Shown here: piece by piece, positions 1,696 through 64,000 of the stretch
Layout of the letters: every line of letters starts with the position of its first letter
How positions within the stretch are numbered: the stretch's first letter is position 1
Origin: Tieghemostelium lacteum
Taxonomy: Eukaryota; Evosea; Eumycetozoa; Dictyosteliales; Raperosteliaceae
NCBI GenBank assembly: GCA_001606155.1
Contig: LODT01000021.1
Location: 708,501 to 772,500 of the forward strand
Length of the DNA stretch: 64,000 bases
Direction: 5' to 3'
Notes under the pieces: generated by a model
The model's database searches: none
Told to the model about the DNA's origin: nothing
Seen by the model: the letters and a program-made list of their open reading frames with translations, nothing else
Program-made: the position numbers and the translations under genes

Positions 1696-4600
1696 TTACT
1701 TTTTATTATTTGATTTCTTAACCTTTTTCTTTGGAGCGTTTTTCCCAGTTGATTTTGTTGGTGGTTTAACTGTTTTAATTAATTCTTCTTCTTTTTTAAT
1801 TTGGTGTTCTTCTTTTTGTTGTACTTTAACTTTTTTAATTGATTTTTCATTTTGATCTTCATCACCACTAAATTTATCTTCTTCTTGTTCTTGCTCTTGT
1901 TCTTTATCTTCATTTTCTTCTTTTACTTGATCATTATTGGAAACTTCAACATTTTTCCATTTTTTCATTCTGTTTAGTGATTTGGAATAAACTTTTTCTA
2001 GAGATTTTGATGGTGCGTCTGATGGAGATTCAGCAGACTGATCATAGAGAGGTCTAAGGGATTGGAAATAGTTGAGAGTATATTGATTATCATCACATAT
2101 CTGTGAGAGATCATTATAGTGTTGTGTAACGGTTTTTTGGAGATTTCTAATGTGAGATAACATGGAGGTACTGTTATCTTTAATGAATTTACCGTGATAG
2201 ATAAACAAGAATTTCAACCATCTCAATTGTAATTCTAAATGTAAATGAGATTCATAGTAGTTACTGAGAAACTGTAGGAAATTCTTTAGATAAAATACTG
2301 GAAATTCTTGAGAGACCAGTGAAATTTGAGTTGGAGGAATCTTTTCAAAAACACTTTCAACAATGGTCTTTTCATTTAACTTTAATGCCATAACTAGTGA
2401 TTTCAAATACTCTTGATTCTTTAATGATTTTAGTATAGTCTCTGGTGTGATTTGTACAGTAAGATCAGTAGGGTCAAAATACAAATGTTCATCGAGACTG
2501 TATATTAATAGACCTTCTGTAGTTGCAGCAGCCCATGATCTACCAGTAGGGGAAACACTCAGACATTTGGTCTTTGGTCTTCTCTTAGTATCCCTTTTTG
2601 AAAAATCACCAGTTTTCACACCGGGGAGTGCCTCTCTATTACGATTTTCACCAGATTTGAAGTCACCTTCCATGAGGTCTAAATGACCGTATTCAGTTAG
2701 ATTCTTCCATGAGAATGCTACACCATCCATAGACTGATTCTGTGTGACTTGGAATTTCTTAACCAACAATTGTTGTTCAATATGATAGATGCAGACAAAA
2801 TTGGAGTTACCTCCTGCAATTAGACATTCGGAGTCTGGTGTGAATGCAATTTTGGTGAATGCTTTACCTTCGGGGTCGTTTTGAACTTTTTTCTCTTCAC
2901 CAGCTATACGTACACCCAACATATCGTTTCTTCCATCAATCATACCAATTTGAGTCCAATAGGTAGTTTCAAAGATTTGCAGTGTACCATCTAGAGAAGA
3001 GGTAACAAATTTCTTACCATCGACACTATAGGCACATGCCAAGATCTCGGATTGGTGTCTTACAGTTTCTCTGATGTCTCTCTCTTCAAAGATATTCCAA
3101 ACTCTTGCAGTCTTATCCCAACTTGTTGAGGTAAGATATGGATTTACAGGATCAAATGCCAAGTCACTTATAGCTGACTCATGGCCACTTATAATATCAG
3201 TAAGTTTACCAGTTCGAACTGACCACACATAAATTTCAAAACTATCTGAAGTTCCAGCTACAACAATCTCACCAGATGGGTCTACTGCCAAAGTTGAAAA
3301 CTGAGCCTTATTAGGTGACACAAAAGTTCTAAAATTTCTATATCTTAGTAAATCAAATGCTCTTACACTGCCATCGAGCGATGCTGAAAATAAAACATTT
3401 TGGTGTGTAACTGGTGAGAATCTAACAGCAGTTACAGGGGCTTCGTGATCTGAAAATGTCACAAAACAGTATCCAGTGGTGGTAGACCAGACTTTAACTT
3501 TACCATCATCACCACCAGTGGCTATTGATTGTCCATCGGAAGAGTAACTAAGAGCATTCATGGAATAAGAGTGACCTTGTTGTTTTAGGATATAACTCTC
3601 AGATCTCCACTCCCATACTAATAACTGACCCAAATCCTCACAACCAAAAGCCAACCATTCACCAGTATTATTAATAGCAGCTGTGGTAATGGAGTGACTT
3701 GATATCTTTAATTTATACAATTCTTTGTATTCAGGCATCTCATGTAACGAGAACTGACCATTGGACATACCAATAAGCATCAATCTTGATCTTAGTTGAT
3801 ATACAGCTGAATTGACTTTAACTGTATAACTATTAAATGACTCTAATTTCTGAAGTTTACTAAATACCCAACGTCCTAATATTGGTTTAGAATTTGATGT
3901 TGTTACTTTTAGTTTCTTAATATCATTTTCATTATCTTCATCTTCTTCCATTTTAACTTTAATTTCACCAGAGTTTTCCAATTCCTCTTTAGTGTGATAT
4001 TTCCAAATGAGAATTGCCTTTTCAGAGACACCATAGACTTCAGTTGCATCTTGATTACCAAATACACAAGTTATTGCCTCAGAACCTTTAATTTGAAAAT
4101 TATCAACACGTTCATTTTTACCTTTTCTTATACACACAAAACCATTTTTACAACAAATCAATAGTTTCTTACTATCAGATGACCAATCTAAACTTGCTAC
4201 TGGTGATTTATGTTCAAATCTACTGAGTATCATTAATGGTGTTGTGTGTGTTTTTATAGGTAGTGGTGCTTTATATAGATATACAAAATTATTAACACCT
4301 ATAGCTAAAACTGCTCCATTAGGACTAAACTTCATTGCTGTAGGTGCGCCATGATGTTTATATGATCCTAATATAACCTGTCTTGAATAATTAATTATAT
4401 AAATTACACCAGCTATATTTTATATATACATGTTAACATTATCATTATTATTCTATTTCATTTATATATTGATAGAATCTATTCATACCTTCATCTGATA
4501 CAACTAAAATACTACCATTAGGAGATATTTCAATTGATACTATATCTTTTGTGGTTTGAAATGGTAGAGTTACAGATTTATTGGCAACTAAATCAAAAGC

Positions 4601-14677: not shown

Positions 14678-15772
14678 TTATTCATCAAGATTAATAATTT
14701 CAGTATGACCAGTATTCTCAAGATCAATTTCTATTGGACCTCCTCCTATATTTTGATTACTTTCATTCACTTCAATTATATTTCCACTATTGTTATTGTT
14801 ATTATTATTATTATTATTTACATTTTGATCATCTGAATTATTTTGATGATCCATTGGATTATTTTCAGATGAAATTTCAGTTGAAGTAGTATCATCATTT
14901 GTAGGATTATTACTACTTTCGTCATTCCCATCTGTATTATTATTTTGAAGATTACTTTCAATATCATTATTATCAATTTGATTATTAGTTTGATCATCCA
15001 TTGATACATCAGCATCATTATTGTTATTATCAATATTTGTACTATTTTGATTATTTTGATCTACTATATGATTATTTTCATTTTGCATAATTTCATTCTC
15101 CCCACTAGTATTCATATTAATAGTACTAGGTGTTGTAGATTGATTAACAACTATATTCTCACTACTATTACTATTATTATTACTAGTATTACTGGTATTA
15201 CTAGTGTTATTATCACTATAGTTAATAGTATTGTTATTGATATTACTATTACTATTATTATTATTATTGTTGTTGTTGTTGTTATTATTATTATTTACAT
15301 TGTTATTTAGAATAGTATTACTATTGGTTAGATTTTGATTTGTAAATAGATTATTTAAGTTACTATTTAATTGAGATAATAGATCGTCCATTGTTCCTCT
15401 AGTTTGTTTTACTGAGGATAGTTTTTGAGATAGTTTTGTTGATAATTTCTCGGGGTGTTCTTTATGACCTATCAGTGATGGTCCATTTATAATGTTACTA
15501 TATATGAGGTTTTGTTTATGAATTTCCATAGTTGCGCAAAACTCATCACAACATAATTCAAATTCCTCTAATTTCTGTGCTAATTCTAAACATAATTCAG
15601 CTCTCTTTACAGGATCACTAATCATCTACTATTAGTATCCATACTGTTTCCACTATTGTTTATATAGTACATACTCTGACTGAACTAAAACTTTAGATAA
15701 TGGATGAATCGCATTTTGTAATTTAGTTTTTAATGGTTGTAATAACTTACTAGATGAACTTGCATTGCTCAT
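14678..15772 (-). CDS. med29: Putative Mediator subunit 29
   Basis: Two exons: 15772-15675 and 15617-14678. The donor is CAGTCAGA|GTATGT and the acceptor GATTAG|TGATCC, in matching phase 2, giving 345 aa. An unspliced start at 15625 would give 315 aa and lose the N-terminal helix. The first exon encodes LLQPLKTKLQNAIHPLSKVLVQ and exon 2 begins with KLEEFELCCDEFCATMEIHKQ, then KLSQKLSSVKQTRGTMDDLL. This order of three helices with the EEF..CDE pattern matches animal Med29 (LIPQLKESL, CLEEFYALCDQLE, then a C-terminal helix). Med29 is a tail/head-junction component of the Mediator co-activator in the nucleus. The last two thirds are Asn-rich, acidic low complexity, common in dictyostelid Mediator subunits. 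The assignment rests on a short core, so it is moderate. Confidence 0.62.
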
Positions 15773-15911: not shown

Positions 15912-15927
15912 TGATTAAAAAACAAAA
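15912..15927 (-). terminator. Pol III terminator of tRNA-Sec
   Basis: Immediately after the discriminator base the minus strand reads TTTTGTTTTTTAATCA, giving T4 and T6 runs, the normal stop signal for RNA polymerase III. Confidence 0.85.
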
Positions 15928-16014
15928 CGCTCCCATGGTTGAATCGAACAACTCGGCATCTCTGCCGCAATAGATTTGAAGTCTATTCCTACCGCCAGGC
16001 AGGCTCACAGAAGC
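15928..16014 (-). tRNA. tRNA-Sec (selenocysteine), anticodon UCA
   Basis: An 87-base gene that folds into the eukaryotic selenocysteine tRNA shape. The acceptor stem is nine base pairs (GCTTCTGTG with CATGGGAGC, three wobble pairs), followed by a G discriminator and no encoded CCA. The D arm has the hallmark six-pair stem and four-base loop (CCTGCC-TGGC-GGTAGG). The anticodon arm is AATAGA-CTTCAAA-TCTATT with anticodon TCA at 15979-15977. The long variable arm is a five-pair stem (CGGCA-GAGA-TGCCG). The T arm is four pairs with loop TTCGATT. The 9+4 acceptor/T domain and long D stem rule out an ordinary UCA suppressor or tRNA-Ser. In the cell it is charged with Ser, phosphorylated by PSTK, converted by SepSecS and delivered by the dedicated elongation factor to UGA codons in mRNAs with SECIS elements. 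It lies between the Med29-like and BEACH genes. There is no intron. Confidence 0.96.
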
Positions 16015-16073
16015 AACTAAATTATTAAAAGTTATTAACTTATGAACAGAGATTTTTACAATTTCAATTTAAA

Positions 16074-16081
16074 TTATGGAA
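16074..16081 (-). promoter_or_regulatory. Candidate DUSE-like upstream element of tRNA-Sec
   Basis: On the minus strand TTCCATAA lies 60-67 bases upstream of the mature tRNA 5' end. It differs by one base from the Dictyostelium upstream sequence element (A/T)CCCATAA found near position -60 of many small RNA genes. Vertebrate tRNA-Sec genes also use an upstream element. The match is imperfect and the flank is AT-rich, so this is tentative. Confidence 0.3.
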
Positions 16082-16217: not shown

Positions 16218-19200
16218 TTATTCTTTGACAAATGGTATTATAATTAAATTACCATCATTTAGACCAATCATTAGATATTTTTCATGAGAGATGAGGGCAA
16301 TAGTTCTGATGGTAGTTGGCGATTCAAAACTATTGACAATGTTAAGGTCAGGTAGTGAACGTACTTTTACACCTTTTGAGCCACCAGTGACTAGGAATTG
16401 TTGACTGTCACCAACACCCAATACACCACCCTTCTTTTGAAGTGATCCTGTGAGTTTTAAATCATAGATTCTCTCATCACACTGATCCATTTTTAGTAAT
16501 TTACCATTAAATGAGTGTACATAGAGATAAGATTGTGAACAATAGGAGATTATATATTGACCTGCTGTACTGATTTTAACCATTTCCACAGATCCTTGGT
16601 GGGCCATAGATCTTACATAGGTACCTGTTCTCAATGTATGTAGAATTGATTTTCTATCCATACCACCACTGACTATCAGATCCCATTCTTCATTGACATC
16701 CAAACAATTTACAGTATCATTGTGACTGCATAACCTGTACAATGGTTTAGTTCTGGGATCTTTGATGAGAGTTGATAAGTCATCCCATACTAGAACTGTT
16801 GTATCCGTACTTGCAGTAGCAAGGGTTCTTCCACTGCCTCCCATGGATATACAGGTAACAATACCTCTATGAAAGTCTCTGTATAATCTATGAATTCTTC
16901 CATTTTGGATATTACAACACTTGAATATAGAGTCCCAGTTAGCACATGAGAACAGCATCTTTCCATCCGGTGTAATTGCAAAACAGTTACTGATGCATGA
17001 AACAGTGTCTGACATGAACAGTGTATCTATCTGTTTCTCTTTATAGGTTGATAATGTCTTATCAATATCAAATGTAAATGGCAGACCGTTGGAAGGTGAG
17101 TTTACAAACTGATTAACAGCCATAACACCATCTCTGTAAACTAGTACGATATCATCACTATCTTGACAGCACCCAATATGTACTAAAGGTATACTATTGT
17201 TAGTCTTAAGTATCTTAAACTGATACTGCTGTTGACTATTTGGTGAAGTAGGTTGTTGAGACTGAGCACTATTCAAATTCAAAGAAGAAGGAAAGAGATT
17301 AGTGAACTTACTCAACAAATCTCTAGGAGGTCTATTCAACTCCTTCAGCGACTTTCTCTGGGGATGTGCTTTTTTAAACAACTGAGGAGGAGTCTGACCA
17401 AACTCCTTTATCTGAGATTCTATAGAATGTCTAGCATCTGGATCATCACGTTGCAAGGCCACATTATTCTCATAAGTCAGATAAAAGAATACATTATTAG
17501 CCTCTAATGCGGAAGGTCCAGTTTGCTTATATCCAAAAATCAAGTCGATCCAATGATGTATATTCATACTGACATACTCTGATTCCAGTGCTTCTCTCAT
17601 CTTTTGAACAAAAACCTCTGGAGATTGGTTAGACCATTTAGGAAGTATCAAATCCCCGTTAGGACTAGACTGAAAATTGAATTGAAACTGTTCGTTATTA
17701 CTTATAAATTCAGGTAGATAATAGAACTCTGGTGTCAGTTCTTTTACATCAGAGAGATTTGGACTTGTTACCCCATCCCACATTTTATCCATTGACTCAA
17801 ACATTCTCTGAGCGTGATCAAAGACTCCAGATTGCAATTGTAAATGACAACTTGTGAATGGTTCCATTCTGACTAGATAGTAACTTACAATACCTCCACT
17901 ACTGTAATGACTGCCATAGAGAAATGCTGGGATATCAGGATCCATTAATGCTTGTGATCTCTTGATTAGTGTATCTAATCTCTGTTGGTTTAGAGCTCCA
18001 ATTGGTTTACGAAGGTCTCTAAAAGTGGACTCTACAGTCAAATCCAAAACCTCAGATTTATAGTCAGCTAGAACTTGTGGGAATACAGGGTACTGTGAGA
18101 TATCATTATAAGTTCTACCAGCTATACTATTCAAAGACATGAGATACTCAAAATTACTAATCTCTCTATCTTTCCATTTTTGAGTGAGTTTAAGACGTTT
18201 GAGTATCTTTTCTGGACTGTCAGACCATTTCACTTTGAGATTGGGTGGATGACAACTTACAATCTTTTGATAGACATGCATTGACTCTTGATCTGATTGA
18301 AAGTTAAACATATAGGTTTTGGTATTGATAAACAGTTCCAAACTATTCCATCTCAATAGATATCTGACACGATGTAGTTCTGTTAAATCTCGTAACTTCC
18401 AATAGTATACATTTTTTACACGGTAACTTCCACAATCAGGATCCTGAATTCTTCTACCTTGAATATCAAATCTATAGTCCTTCTCATAGCTTATATAGGA
18501 AGTTGTAATGATAAACTTTCCAGGGAATGCACCAATAGGTGTAACCATCTGACATCCATACACTCCAACCACTTTCTCTTCAATTTGAACATCATTTTGG
18601 AAATTATTTGTCAAATTATTCAAAGTATCTTTTGATTTCTCTGATACAGTATCAGAATTACTACTTCCAGGTGACAATAACTCACTTATACTTATAGGTG
18701 ATATCAAACCACTAATACTAACAATTGGTGAATTATTATTATTACTATTATTATTATTATTATTATTATTACTATTAGCATTATTTGAATTATAGTTGTT
18801 ATTACTATTATTTACAGGTGAGAGTGAATTTGGTGATGTACTTGATGTTGTTAATAATGATAATTTACTTGGTGATTTTAATATAGTTGGTGTTGAGTCT
18901 ATACTTGATTGTGTTGTTGTTGTTGATGTTGTTGTTGTAGTTGATGTGGTTGTATTTGGATTTGATGATTTAATTGGGGTACCTAAACTAGAAGATAATG
19001 ATTGAAGATCTTTACATTCAAATTCTTTATAGAGTGTAGATAGATGAGGTAAAGGTGGATCAGTTTTAATCTGTAAAATCATATTACCTAAACCATCACC
19101 AGTATCTTGATTTATATAAAATGTCTCTTTTTCAGTCTGATAGATATCAATGATAATTCTTCTGTTTCTACCATACTTGTTTTGCTTTGATAAACCTTTA

Positions 19201-22067
19201 TAATCACTACCCAAATAATTTCTTTTTAACTTTCTTCTCATTCTTAATGGACCTTCACTTTTATCTAATTTCCAGTGTACAACAGTAGTGTCTTCAGGTT
19301 CCAATATTAAACTATTATTATTACTGTTTGTACTATTATTTATAGTTGATGTTGCAGTTGTTGTGGTTGTTGTTGTTGTAATAAAATCATTACTAGTTAA
19401 ATTCAAAGGTGAGTTAACAGGTGGACTACCATAAGGTGATATTATAGGTGATGATATAGGTGAAGATATTGAATTACTAGCTTTAATGGTATTACTTGAT
19501 GAACTTGTTGTTGGGTTTAGTTGTGGAATATTAATACCCAATTCTTTGAGTTTATATATAATAGGTAGATAGGGTGGTTTAGGTAGAATAGACTGTATAC
19601 CAGATAAATTAGCAGCACGATACTTTCTAATTTTCAACCAATGTCTATACAATAGATACATTGTCTTTTCTTCAAGAATGAGATCATCTCTTAGTTTTTG
19701 AATTTCATCTTGACAGTCAATCTCCCATATATAAGAGATATGTTTAGGTAGAGGTAGCTGAGTACTTAGAAGATTTTTAGATTTTTGAGATTCATCATGC
19801 GCCATATCATCATACCATGTATCCTTGTTTTGCATAGGTGGTATGATATCCTCAAGCATCTTTGTAATATCATCTTGGTTCTCAACAGTAGATTCTTTAA
19901 GATACAATGCAAGCCATCTAGCTTCGGTATTGGTGAAATAGGGTGCAACAGATTCTCTGATGATTACAATAATCTGTGACCTTGACTTCTTAATTCTATC
20001 CATTTGAACCTTCTTTTGACTGTCAGAATCTATAATATAGAACTTCTTGAGAATACTCAACCACTGTTCAATCTTTATAGTATTTCTCCAAAAATGACCA
20101 TTAGTCTGAACACGTTGTCTTATAGACTCAAACAATGCCATCTGTGTAAGAGAATGCGTTTGAGACCATAGCTGAAAGTTATTCATCACCAAATACTGTA
20201 TAGACAAATTCCACAATTGTTGATTGGTACTACAAAAACTTAAAATTCTTCCAAGAATTTCAATGTCCTCTGGAGTCCAATATTGCACTGATGAGGGCTC
20301 AGATTTCAAAAGTAACGAAATCACTTGGAATCCGTGTGTTTCTATGATCTGGTCTCTGAATATAGTGTGATGTTCTAACAGTGACAGTAAAAGTCTTAAT
20401 AAAGACCCTATATGTCCTGATCCTGAACTATTAGGGAAAATTGGAATAGGTGCCTGACTCGACACTGGCATAGACTGGAAACTTAATTGTAAAGGTGACA
20501 GTTGAGTTGAATCTGTAATCTCAGCAGGTTTCATTTCCATTCCGGATATTGGTTGTCCCAATTGATAAAACAGTGGGTACACCATTCGAATGCCTCCACA
20601 ATAGACCAACTGTTCCAGAGGTGGTATGGTTTTTACAATATTTACACCTTCCATTATAGTAGAGGCATTCGATAGCTCTCCTGTTGAAATCTCAAAACAT
20701 AAAGCCTTGTCTGTAGCTTTAGGATGATATAGGAATATAATCTTTAGATTTCTTCTTCCATTCTCTAGAAACAGCTCTCCATTGTAGATGCCAGTTGACG
20801 AGTTCTCTCTTGGCATTTTTTCATGTAACAGTGTACTGTCTTTACTCAAACTGTACAAATGTTGAACTTCAGCTGGATTTAAAAACTCATTCAACATAAG
20901 CACTGAACCTATTCGACCTGTGAATCCATTGCATAGCGATTGACTGTTTCCCAAATGACATTTGGTAAATGGTTTATCAGATTTAGGATAGAGTAACGGC
21001 ATCTTTTCTTCTAATCTACCATTGATATATAGAGACAATTGAGATTTTCTCAATAAAAAGTATTCATGACTGATGGTGAGATAGTACCATTTTTTAGGTT
21101 GAAATTTAAAGATACTTTTGAGAATGGGTGCCTTGTTTTTAGTCTTTATAGAGAATACTAATGATTGTAGTTGAAATGTACATTCTAGACCTATGTCATC
21201 GTCAGAGAAGAAACTGAATAGAGAAGGTCTGTAATTTAAATTGGAAAAGTCTTCACAACTCATCCAAAAACTTATTGTATATCCTGAACCATCAAATGAA
21301 TTTCTCTGTGGTATCATAAGTCCAGAATTCAAAGTACTGAAATTAAAGTACAAATCAGGACCTTCTCTATTCCTAAAAACATATTCTAAAGTCTCTATCA
21401 ATACATTCCACCAATATGGTCTCTCATCATTCTGTGACTCTAATAACCTAAAAAAGTATTTCAATTCTCTAGCTGTTACCGAATGAAATGTCAACATTTG
21501 TAAAGTTACTGAAATCTCACCTATCACATCACTGTCACGGTGAGTTGTAATCAACAGATTAAGTAATCTCGTTATCCAACCTTGTTGACAACAATAGTTC
21601 TGTACCAATATATTTGAAAATATACATCCATTCAGTTTCTTTAGTAACAACATATGTAATATAGAGTTACCTGTCAAAAACGACAATGAAGGTGTATCTA
21701 ACAGAACATTAAAAAACATATAAAAGAAATCAAATGGTTTCCTCCCATTCTGTTGTTGTTGATTACTATATTGATGTTGTGTCTGTAAATCATTATTATT
21801 ATTATAAATCAATGATAACTCTATCAACTTTAAAATCATTTCAAATGTTAGTTCTATACATTCCTATATATCCACTATTCTATTCTCATTGCATTCTATC
21901 CTCCATACTTTATCAAATATAACTATTAAATCTGCAAATTCAGGTGTATCCTTTTTCTTTGATTTTGAAAGTAATTCTTGTATATATATTTCTTCAATTG
22001 ATTTTATATTATTTGATTTTAATATAGAGTTATTATTATTATTGTTATTATTATTATTTTCCTCCAT
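16218..22067 (-). CDS. BEACH-domain giant protein (ConA-like, PH-BEACH, BEACH, WD40; Lvs/WDFY3 family)
   Basis: Two exons: 22067-21909 and 21863-16218. They are separated by a 45-base intron (AAA|GTATGG, ATATAG|GAA, phase 0), giving 1,934 aa. Domains in order: an alpha-helical region; a concanavalin-like/LamG domain at about residues 235-410 (PDLYFNF, GYTISFWM, LSLYINGR); more helical repeat; an Asn/Ser/Thr-rich linker around 860-1140; PH-BEACH at about 1144-1260 (YGCQMVTPIGAFPGKFIIT); BEACH at about 1280-1555 (SLNSIAGRTYND, YPVFPQVLADY, TFRDLRKPIGA, HYSSGGIVSYYLVRMEPFT, HHWIDLIFGYKQTGP); and five or so WD40 repeats to the end. BEACH proteins act in lysosomal and vacuolar trafficking, membrane fission/fusion and cytokinesis; Dictyostelium has six (LvsA-F). 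Length and order suit LvsE or a WDFY3-like member, but I cannot choose. No FYVE domain is visible. Confidence 0.93.
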
Positions 22068-40632: not shown

Positions 40633-43600
40633 ATGTCATATTATTCAACCAATTCATTAAGTTATAAAGTATATGACTCTGATGTTTATAGCTATTTTGA
40701 TGAGATTGAGGCTTTTGGTGATGATTTTAAATGTAATAGTACCTATATAAACGATAATCAGTCTGTAGTTGAAGAAACATTTGTAAATGAAATTCATTCA
40801 CCTAGATCTACCAATACAACCAAATCACAACACCACCATCATCAAATTAGTAAAAACGAAAATAACAACAAAACTAATGATGAAGTAGGTTGTTATGTAA
40901 ATACAAATACAAGTAATAGTAGCATTTCAACTAGTGCTACTCATATATCATATGTAAATAATACCCATGAAGAACTACAACCCAGTAACCACAACCACAA
41001 CCACCACAACCAACAACAACAGCAAAACAAATCTAGAAGTAATAGTAGTAGTAATCCATTACATCATTCACCAACTCAAAGTATACAGAAACCTAATGGT
41101 CAGTTTTTGTCAGTTTCAGGTTCTGGAAGTAGTATAGATATTGTATCACAATTGAATAGATATACAACTAGAGATTTTAAGAGAAAGGATTGGAATGCTG
41201 AATTTCAAACACTTCTCTCAATGCAAGATTCTGAGATGAAGTTTAGTAAACTGTCTCATTTGGCGAGAGATTTTGTGTTTTCAGCAAAGAGTTATGCACA
41301 GATTATCATTAATGAATTGTGTGTACCTCTGGATCAAAAGACTATAAAACCTATTGATGTAGGTGGTTTTGCAGGTGGTCTAAAGTACCATTGCCATAAT
41401 ATTCTATTTAAATTTGCAATGGATACAATGTTAGGTAAAGAGTGCTGGATGTATGGTGGAAAAGCACCTAGAGATGATTATGCCGCTAAAGCTGCTTCTA
41501 ATGAACTTAAAGGTCTGACATCATACTATACCGCAGGTGTAGAGGGTTTAAATTACCCAATGATGGCACTCATTGATTATAAAGGGTTTAGACTTATTGC
41601 ACTCTCTGTTCTACCCATTTCCTCTGAAACCATTCGATATGGTAGCTCGGATAGTGGTACTGTCGTACACTATGATATCGATGAGTTAAATAATAAAATG
41701 TTAGAAACTGGTAGAAAACTTAACCTTAAACCTCATAGAGTAGGTTCCGTACCTGAACTCACCAAAGTCCTAGCATCACCAGGTGATATTGAAGCACATT
41801 TAGGTACTGATAATAGATACTATGTAATTGATTTCTCTAGAACATTTCCACCTGAATCTCTAACTAAACAGTATGTACCCCACCCCTTATTCCTAACGAA
41901 TCACTATATATAGATTTTAACTCATATTTTTAACTTTAAAACTACTAGACCTAATATCAACAAAAGATGTATTTTTTATAATTTATTACGACCTGAATTT
42001 GTATCAAAATGGAAGAAACCATTGTGTAGCGATTCTTTTAGTGGTTGGCAGAGGTTAGATAGTGATAAACATATTCATAATAAGGAGGTTGAGGAGGCTA
42101 CACATTACCTGGTTTATAATCAAATTAAGATTTTGGCTAATAAATTTGATGGTAATAGAACTTTTAAGAGTAAATATGAAATGGTTAGTGAAGATGCTGC
42201 AAAGAATATCAATGCAAAGGCACAACAGAGTAAGAATAAGGTGATTCAAGGTCCTTCAGATTTCACACAGATAAAATCAACATTTGCTGTAAAGTTTCTG
42301 TCTATTCTTCAGAAGAGATTTGAAGATTCTTCTCTACCTTCTCCACCTACAATGTTAATGAAAGAAGATACAAAATTGATAAATTCAAGTTTGGAATCTA
42401 CTAGTAGTAATAATAGTTCATTAATGAATGCCAATGGTGGAGGTGTGTCTGGTGGTGTTGGAGGAGTTACTGGTGGTGTGACTGGTGGGAATCTTGGTGG
42501 ATCTATAGCTGGTACAACTCCACAGATTTCAGGAGCTAATAATAGAACTAATAGACCACTGAATCAGGTAAAGAATGAGGTTCAACAACAACTTTTAAAG
42601 ATTATAGAGGAAATGCATAGATTAGGTATCAATATCAGACATATGGGTAGAGTTAGATATTATACTCAAACTAAATCTATAAGGGATTTGTTGTTATTGG
42701 AGATGACTGCTAGATCTATAAAAACCATCATTCGTGATGAAATGAGAAATACGATGAAAAAGGAACAAGGTCTCTCTGAAGAACCATTCAAACAAATTAT
42801 TATTCAAACATTTAACCAAGTTCTAGATACTGATTCTCCAATGTGGAGAAGAGTCTACGAAAACATTAAATCAAAATATTACATGGCATTCATGAAATAT
42901 GATGAATCCAATGAAATTAATATAAAACTTTCAACTTCAACTTCAAATGCTTTATCTAATCTATCAATTGATGAAGCTGCTGAAAACTCAAATAACAAAT
43001 CTACATCAACCACCACCACCACCACCAACAACAACAGTGATAATAATTATATAACAAATAGTAATAACTATGTAAATAATAATATTGATATAAGATCAAG
43101 TAGTAAAGGTGTAAATAGAAAAACAGCAACTTCAACTACAACAAATAATTTAAATATTCCAAGTGCAATTGAAGAATATACAATTGATGATAACTGGAAA
43201 GAACAGATTAATGTAAAGAATCTATTGGATAGATTGATTATATTGACTGGTATAACATTATCACCAGTTGCTCAATATGAATTCTCAAAGGATCCATATA
43301 GATTTCAATTTGTGGATTCGGATATCCAAGAAATCTATGCAAATGTAAAGCATATGAATATAATTGACTATGCTGAGGGTATGGCATTATCAATGGCTTC
43401 AAAGTCTAAACAAGGTAGAGAGAAACTACGTTTGTTAAAAATGTCATCTTTGAAATTTCAAACCTCTTTGAAATCCAATCCAGATAATTTTGAATGTCTA
43501 TGTCAATTAGGTAGAACTCTAGTTGCTCAGGCTGAATCTATTAGTTTGACTACTGGTATCTTTGGAAAGAATATATTTCTAAAAACACTCGAAGACGCTG

Positions 43601-55807: not shown

Positions 55808-56414
55808 ATGGAGCCTCTAATACAACCAATTGAAAATAGTAATAAAATTAATGGTTTATCACCAGCAAACAACCCAAATAATGGTACACAAACACATACA
55901 AAAACTAGTATTTTAACAATCAACAATACCAATGTAAATGCTGATATGCATGAGGATGCCAGTACATTAATTAATCTTAAAAAGAGGTTACTTGAAGATG
56001 ATTTACCAATTTCTATATTTAAAAATTCATCTACATTTAATCAACAACCACAACAACAAGCATCAGGTAGTAATATCAATAATAATGTAAATTCCAAGAG
56101 TACACCATATCTACCATCACTATCTAATCAATATTATAGTAATAGTAATAATTCATCAGGAACTTCATCACCTATTCTTACAAATGGAAGTATAGAATCA
56201 CTACCTAGTTGTCCACAATTACAAACTCTAAATTTTTCATCAAAAATCACACTTCCACAAGCACCACCTCAACAAGCAAAATATCCTGCAATTCCACAAT
56301 TGCCACCGCCATCACCACAGTCTTGTATTTCTCAAGCTTCACCATTATCTCTATCTAGTAGTAAATTATTAAATCCTAATACATTATCACAAACCACTAC
56401 CACAACTACCACTA

Positions 56415-56497
<83 letters not shown>

Positions 56498-58189
56498 ACA
56501 TGTTCATCATCAGTTTCATCATTATCATCTTTTAGTGGATGTAATTCAGCACCAACTACACCAAATATTGTATCTAGTAATTCATCAATCGTATCAATTT
56601 CAGAATCAACCTCAACATCATCATCTTCACTCTCTGCTTTGGCACTTGTCAGTACTTCTCCATATAAATCTACATCTAATAACAATAACAATAATAATAT
56701 TAATAATATTACTAGTAGTGGCTCTTTAAGTTCACCATTGTCATTATCTAGTAATTCATCAATGATACCAACAACTACACCAGCCCACTGCCATCAAATA
56801 CATTTGAGTACAGAAGAGAATCCATGTTGTCCAAAATGTACAACACCAGCTACTCGTAGACATGACAAGCGAAGATGGTGGTGTAAAATTTGCACAAAAT
56901 CATTCACACCTTATAGAAAAGAAAAGAAAGCAATGTTAGGTCATGAAATGAGTAACAGTGCTCCACATTGTGGTCGTTGTTATCAACAAGCAACTAGAAA
57001 ACATGACAAGAGAAGATGGTGGTGTAAAGAATGTAAAAAACCTTTTACACCCACTCAATTTAATCTATCTTCTTCTGATGGTCAACAAATTTATGTTATG
57101 GGTTCAAATAAATTTAATGGTTCCTCTGATGATATACCTATTAGTGACCCCAACCATAAAGACAACAATAGTAGTAGTAGTACAGTAGCTGAAGAATCAA
57201 TTAGTGATTTAAAGAATATTATAAATAGTTTTTCCAAAAACTCTGTACCTAATAACTTTAATGGTAGCACCACTTCAAATAATTCTAATAAGTTTTTAGA
57301 AATTATTGGTGGTGCTCCCTCAACAACATCTACTTCATCACCAAAGATTAATTCACTGTTGAACCCAATTTCACATCAACAACCTGAACAAAAACAAACC
57401 GAACAAGCTCAAAAGAAATTAAAAGTTTCACTGTATGATACACCAAATGATTTTAACCATAAGGATTTAATTGACCACCACCAACAACAACAACAACATA
57501 TGAAACCACTATACACCCAACCCACTAAATTATCATTAAATAGTAATAATAGTAATAATAATACTAATAACAATTCACACCATAACACACAATTTATAAA
57601 AAATCAAATTAATCTTACCAATAGTTATGATATTATTAATAATGATGAATATTCAAGATCAGCTTCATCACCAACCTATTCATCATCACCATCAACATCT
57701 TCATCTGCATCCTCATCTAACACATCATCTCCTGTACACAATTCATTGTCATCAATGTCTCTAAATTCTCTCTCTTTTTCTACATTAAGTCCACCTCTAT
57801 CATCAACTAATATTTCACACGATATGAACATTACTTTGATTAGTAACAAAAGTAACAATAATAATAACAATAATATTTTAAAATCTAATACCACAGAAAT
57901 TATCAATAATAATAATAATTTAAAAATGAATAACAATGCATTGTCCTCCAACAATAACAATAATAATAATAATAATAATATTATTGTAATGTCTAGTAAT
58001 AGCAATAATAATGCTATGAATAAATCGAGTCCTAGTGAAGTTATTTTAGATCATGCATTTCAAACATTGATACAGTTCAATGGTGAAGAAAATACTCCCT
58101 TGGTGGTACTAGAGTGGTTTGAAAAATCTAATTACAACCACATATTTGAAAAAATGATGCTATTACGTTCGTCACATAGTAAACAATAA
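55808..58189 (+). CDS. Ser/Asn-rich protein with two tandem CX2CX14CX2C zinc ribbons
   Basis: A single exon, 793 aa. Residues about 340-365 and 385-410 are two near-identical units. Unit one reads CPKC, then 14 residues with TRRHDKRRWW, then CKIC and KSFTP. Unit two reads CGRC, 14 residues with TRKHDKRRWW, then CKEC and KPFTP. The Cys pairs, the basic aromatic RHDKRRWW turn and the F-T-P end resemble zinc ribbons of the InsA/transposase or TFIIS type. The rest is low complexity: a 27-residue Ser run encoded by (TCA)n at 56417-56497, Asn runs, and Ser/Pro blocks. The last 45 residues are complex and conserved-looking (FQTLIQFNGEENTPLVVLEW). A nuclear nucleic-acid-binding regulator is plausible but inferred. 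I recognise no named protein. Confidence 0.85.
56417..56497 (+). repeat. (TCA)n trinucleotide repeat coding poly-Ser
   Basis: 27 uninterrupted TCA units within the zinc-ribbon gene. Such runs are a normal feature of dictyostelid coding sequences and may vary in length between strains. Confidence 0.95.

Positions 58190-63959: not shown

Positions 63960-64000
<41 letters not shown>
62959..64000 (-). CDS. C-terminal part of an Asn/Met-rich protein with DPF/NPF motifs (partial)
   Basis: The frame is open to the right edge, so the N-terminus lies outside the window and about 347 C-terminal residues are seen. After a Gln run at the edge come NLLDPFHVNQ and NPFDPAFNAKALQIKAAFESS, which contain DPF and NPF tripeptides that in endocytic adaptors bind the AP-2 ear and EH domains. 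The remainder is Asn/Met/Gly-rich low complexity (repeated MPMNN units). By motif it could be an AP180/CALM-, epsin- or other clathrin-adaptor-type protein, but the diagnostic ANTH or ENTH domain would be upstream and is not in view. The C-terminus ends QKPIQNIYF. Confidence 0.7.

Follow-up and report, generated by a model that had tools for sequence, protein, structure and literature searches.

In vertebrates, the selenocysteine tRNA (tRNA-Sec) gene has a gene-external type 3 promoter of RNA polymerase III (Pol III), for which Brf2 (PMC4671959) and SNAPc/PSE (PMC3499247) are described. The locus presented here resembles that arrangement in having an external upstream element common to U6 and, at a shorter distance, to the snRNA genes of RNA polymerase II (Pol II). 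The elements themselves differ, being the PSE in vertebrates and the DUSE (CCATAA) here. In Leishmania, tRNA-Sec is reportedly transcribed by both Pol II and Pol III; it is another protist tRNA-Sec with unusual transcription, likened to ours by description and not by sequence.

Among dictyostelids, a tRNA-Sec was reported in D. discoideum by Shrimali et al. 2005 (as cited in PMC2375036). PMC2375036 describes five selenoproteins in that species, including the two-Sec membrane protein MSP, and the labelling of its selenoproteins with 75Se. A 2026 paper (PMC13063481) gives one Sec in each of five D. discoideum selenoproteins, and it calls the sole tRNA-Sec gene, which lies in no nucleosome-free region, constitutively repressed. 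Dictyostelid ncRNA genes have an upstream element known as the DUSE (PMC3188802). In D. lacteum it mostly has two Cs and a position near -60; Class I genes that scored highly but lacked it were not expressed, and in the view of the authors the DUSE is required for expression of Class I genes (PMC7919456).

We analysed a 64,000-nt stretch of Tieghemostelium (Dictyostelium) lacteum DNA (the window) together with the genome around it. As in D. discoideum, there is a tRNA-Sec accompanied by SPS2, Sep15, a deiodinase homologue, and a two-UGA MSP candidate; the species is a different one, and MSP here is a candidate set by the description of MSP. With the DUSE-bearing ncRNA genes (Class I RNAs and U snRNAs; PMC3188802 and PMC7919456) the locus shares the same core, at the spacing that Class I and U6 genes show in this genome, and it differs from them in encoding a tRNA whose B-box core is intact. 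Direct observations cover the tRNA structure, the genome-wide search, the Sec machinery and UGA-bearing genes, the motif, its spacing, and the controls. We propose, with a probability of about 0.8, that the locus is a functional dictyostelid tRNA-Sec gene feeding UGA recoding and transcribed by Pol III from a gene-external DUSE promoter. In the literature searched, whose coverage was partial, we found no tRNA-Sec gene described as having a DUSE, and an earlier printed mention is possible; nor did that literature yield a publication on the selenoproteins of lacteum.

The tRNA-Sec gene and its surroundings

The features of the locus are as follows.

15928..16014, minus strand: tRNA-Sec gene, 87 nt, UCA anticodon, G73 at 15928 (ARAGORN, Rfam, fold)
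15977..15979, minus strand: UCA anticodon, tRNA positions 36-38 (ARAGORN)
15995..16006, minus strand: degenerate A box, three mismatches to TRGYNNARNNGG (motif scoring)
15941..15949, minus strand: intact B-box core, GTTCGATTC (motif scoring)
15917..15927, minus strand: T-rich terminator, TTTT G TTTTTT, directly after G73 (sequence)
16074..16079, minus strand: DUSE core CCATAA, -65 to -60 from tRNA G1, inside TTCCATAAT at 16073-16081 (sequence match, shuffle control)

The single tRNA that ARAGORN finds in the 64-kb window is a minus-strand tRNA-SeC (15928-16014), its anticodon being tca at position 36. Rfam family RF01852 matches 15929-16014 on the same strand over its full model (1-91), with 65.6 bits and an E-value of 3.9e-11, and it is the sole Rfam family above its gathering score (47 bits) in the window. 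A sequence-only reading of this DNA had placed a tRNA-Sec gene at 15928..16014 while leaving its strand unstated, and had named a low covariance score as grounds for refutation; both programs confirm the gene, on the minus strand, with a score above the threshold. The minimum-energy fold is the Sec cloverleaf (-33.8 kcal/mol, z -3.13, with 1 of 200 shuffles equally good). It comprises a 9-bp acceptor stem, a 6-bp D stem with a 4-nt loop, a 6-bp anticodon stem, a 5-bp variable arm, and a 4-bp T stem, and every stem pairs, with several G-U pairs in the acceptor. The traits claimed by that reading are therefore all present, as judged by ARAGORN and the fold: the 9+4 arrangement, a D stem of six pairs closing a loop of four bases, the long variable arm, and the UCA anticodon. 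A second copy was not found at E <= 0.001 in an RF01852 search of 23,333,832 bases on 43 contigs, in which 53 of 572 candidates were scored. The locus is most likely a functional eukaryotic tRNA-Sec gene, and its expression and its charging with Ser and then Sec are predicted. The gene itself is a further example of a known gene type, Sec tRNA being already known in D. discoideum.

The gene sits between two minus-strand ORFs: one with BEACH/PH/WD40 domains that spans 16218-21839 and ends at 16218, and an Asn-rich one beginning at 15625, to which no Pfam family was assigned. Elsewhere in the window are ORFs with Utp12/WD40 domains (1696-4335, minus strand) and a CLU domain (40633-41913, plus strand). 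The GC skew is -0.41 at 56001-58000, overlapping a Ser/Asn/Thr-rich ORF without a Pfam family (55808-58189, plus strand). Window position 64000 is the end of contig C18 (708501-772500 of 772500).

Selenocysteine decoding in the genome

The total absence of Sec machinery, which the sequence-only reading would have counted against the gene, did not occur. A SepSecS-family gene matches PF05889 with 421.2 bits, a family that also matches B. subtilis among the controls. The eEFSec-specific domain PF21208 is found with 128.8 bits, and matches none of the controls. SPS2 is matched by TIGR00476 with 185.6 bits against a cut-off of 125, over model positions 64-262. A PSTK-like kinase has TIGR03575, the model of eukaryotic PSTK, as its best NCBIfam match (79.8 bits, E 2.1e-22), ahead of TIGR03574, and is placed in KTI12 by Pfam; since the TIGR03575 score is far under the cut-off of 382.35, its assignment as PSTK is probable and not proven.

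Four genes bear in-frame UGA. In SPS2 a TGA stands directly before GCKIPQ, in the exon that precedes the TIGR00476-matched part, at the position of Sec in human SPS2. A deiodinase homologue reads CGSFT-TGA-PPF. Sep15 (PF08806, 33.1 bits, cut-off 26) reads CK-TGA-RLGAFPH, its exons having been joined by eye. In the candidate MSP (locus L078, G000:C2, about 559,580-560,680, plus strand), whose frame is 243 residues long, codons 20 and 89 are both TGA. Codon 89 is split as TG|A by a 77-nt intron whose splice site was inferred from GTATGT...TTAG and from the frame, and is therefore hidden from open-frame scans of genomic DNA. By Pfam it matches MerC only, with 11.1 bits, under the cut-off of 27.6, the query having had a different and incorrect splice junction. 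The two papers on D. discoideum differ on the Sec count in MSP, with two in the 2007 paper PMC2375036 and one in PMC13063481; the two UGA of the candidate fit the former.

A sequence of the form GTAATGA...AAA...TGAT lies downstream of SPS2, the deiodinase homologue, Sep15, and the candidate MSP (4/4), and in SPS2, the deiodinase homologue, and the candidate MSP this SECIS-like sequence begins TGTAATGA. An Rfam scan of the SPS2 locus at a permissive threshold returned no SECIS match, so we assessed these sequences by how well their helices pair and by comparison with the SECIS of D. discoideum; they match its UGUA and AAA features as given in PMC2375036. The folds of the three that were folded are weak: shuffles were equally good in 124/200 cases for SPS2, 6/200 for the deiodinase homologue, and 133/200 for the candidate MSP, so that folding gave no separation of the SPS2 and MSP sequences from shuffles. 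A SECIS pattern search gave 85 matches, against 27 with the reversed pattern. It is an incomplete screen, because 67 of the 85 were scored and the other 18 omitted by eye without a stated rule. Among the 67 scored, SPS2 and the deiodinase homologue rank first with nine pairs, followed by two others with seven and five with six. Two of these seven lower-ranked matches were examined: L078 (six pairs) led to the candidate MSP, and nothing was found at L093 (seven pairs). Of the five selenoprotein families of D. discoideum, four (SPS2, deiodinase, Sep15, and MSP) thus have UGA-bearing candidates here, and the in-frame UGA with a SECIS-like sequence in each of the four genes upholds the earlier claim that some UGA codons are read as Sec in this organism.

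The upstream element and its spacing

On the minus strand, CCATAA starts 65 nt before the tRNA-Sec G1 (16079-16074), which is a DUSE core at the spacing of known members. The sequence-only reading had the tRNA-Sec gene and the recoding right, and overlooked this element. Its attribution of the DNA to a dictyostelid agrees with the presence, in the same genome, of Class I-type RNA loci whose DUSE has two Cs. CCATAA is found at -63 to -65 in ten distinct Class I RNA loci carrying the AGAAC...TTACAGC motif. These are ten of the 26 matches to a pattern in which CCATAA had to precede CTTACAG by 45-75 nt, and L044, L058, and the other 14 were left out; the reversed pattern gave 44 matches, so the control was not exceeded, and because the pattern demanded CCATAA, the sole independent evidence is how tightly the spacing clusters. 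L044 and L058, outside the ten, are divergent Class I relatives with AGACTTTCTTACAGC that have CCATAA at -64 and -58. In U6, assuming that the RNA starts at GG, the motif is at about -66, or at -68 when counted from the start of the model; U6 and tRNA-Sec share an identical TTCCATAAT at this site. All four U2 genes have an element at -57 to -59, CCATAA once and CCTTAA three times, and one has an additional CCATAA at -77; CCTTAA would be a DUSE variant.

The tRNA-Sec element at -65 groups with U6 and most Class I loci, and not with U2 at about -58. Across L108-L111 and L034, the U2 elements are at -57 to -59, versus -63 to -66 for U6 and the ten Class I loci. A rule in which DUSE distance separates Pol II from Pol III is possible, to which L058, the Class I relative with its motif at -58, is an exception.

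The motif is six bases long in AT-rich DNA and was spotted by eye ahead of the controls. We scored 44 other tRNA genes, representing 23 distinct sequences, and found neither CCATAA nor CCTTAA at -70 to -55 in any of them; they are a subset because 63 of 1668 RF00005 candidates were scored, and at least one of them (L075) is truncated. Elsewhere in the 150 nt upstream, CCATAA is found in four of the 44 (at -8, -25, -50, and -138), and at -70 one of the other tRNA genes matches the looser CCA[TCA]AA. When the 150-nt flank was shuffled 20,000 times with its dinucleotides preserved, 0.16% of the trials had CCATAA in the interval -66 to -63 and 0.67% in the interval -70 to -55, while 5.8% had it at any position. 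The window contains it 22 times in 127,990 positions, and TTCCATAAT once. The evidence on the DUSE concerns one tRNA-Sec gene in one species.

Near-identical repeats, AACTTGGTAAGGAGCATTCTTACA and AACTGGGCATTCCAGGAGCAAAACACCAAAAATTCAGAGG, stand beside many tRNA genes, upstream at L005, L006, L020, and L022 and in the flanks at L013, L021, L026, and L029-L032 (sequences unoriented). They look like the ends of tRNA-targeting mobile elements.

Transcription of the gene and rival explanations

The internal boxes of the gene are unequal. Its A box ranks last among the 45 that were scored, with three mismatches to TRGYNNARNNGG; among the 44 others, 18 have none, 25 have one, and one has two. This weakness is partly due to the shape of the Sec D-arm. 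The B-box core GTTCRANNC is intact, and the longer GGTTCRANNCC has two mismatches, as it does in 8 of the 44 others. G73 (15928) is followed directly by TTTTGTTTTTT, a T-run terminator of the kind that goes with a type 3 Pol III promoter, and the upstream flank is very AT-rich.

The presence of a DUSE upstream of tRNA-Sec, and its absence from the ordinary tRNA genes examined, suggests that the gene is switched on externally. In the model that we propose, CCATAA at -65 would act as the promoter, unlike in the other scored tRNA genes of the genome, and Pol III would read the gene from it, probably with assistance from the intact B box. Transcription would end in TTTTGTTTTTT, the tRNA would be charged via PSTK and SepSecS, and the mature tRNA-Sec would supply UGA recoding.

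Serine tRNA and tRNA-Sec both have long variable arms, and on that common trait an ordinary serine tRNA, or a suppressor tRNA, might be misread as Sec. The UCA anticodon, the 9-bp acceptor with a 4-bp T stem, and the six-pair D stem all speak against such a misreading, and it is contradicted by the RF01852 covariance match above threshold; we reject it as having almost no chance of being right. Another possibility is that Sec decoding has been lost from this genome and that the tRNA-Sec gene is decayed or out of use, which would accord with the several G-U pairs of the acceptor stem and with the D. discoideum counterpart being called constitutively repressed (PMC13063481). It does not accord with stems that all pair, with the presence of SepSecS-family, eEFSec, and SPS2 genes, or with four genes that retain in-frame UGA and downstream SECIS-like sequences, and for these reasons this explanation was also rejected, as highly improbable.

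There is finally the explanation in which a real tRNA-Sec gene uses its internal A and B boxes like any tRNA gene, and the CCATAA at -65 is there by chance. The intact B-box core agrees with it, as do the mere six bases of the motif, its low yet not negligible recurrence in shuffled flanks (0.16-0.67%), and its 22 occurrences in the window. Coincidence would nonetheless have to place the motif at the spacing of Class I and U6 of the same genome, in a position where 0 of 44 other tRNA genes have it, and in front of the worst A box of the 45, and we hold it to be unlikely. The preferred reading is therefore that of a functional tRNA-Sec gene driven by an external DUSE. Such a gene may look different in nucleosome data.

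We are inclined to extend this to dictyostelid tRNA-Sec genes as a group, although with less assurance than for the locus itself. They would have joined the snRNA promoter class, with the DUSE setting the start, its distance (-65 versus -58) selecting Pol III rather than Pol II, and the A box freed, as an amoebozoan counterpart, inherited or independent, of the PSE-driven tRNA-Sec of vertebrates. External control of tRNA-Sec is already familiar from vertebrates; if our reading is true, an snRNA-type element of a different supergroup stands at tRNA-Sec, and external control would be older, or easier to evolve, than thought. For D. discoideum, an external DUSE offers a handle on a tRNA-Sec gene that lies outside nucleosome-free regions despite selenoprotein production. 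The spacing of -65 versus -58 would give dictyostelids a testable rule for the choice between Pol II and Pol III.
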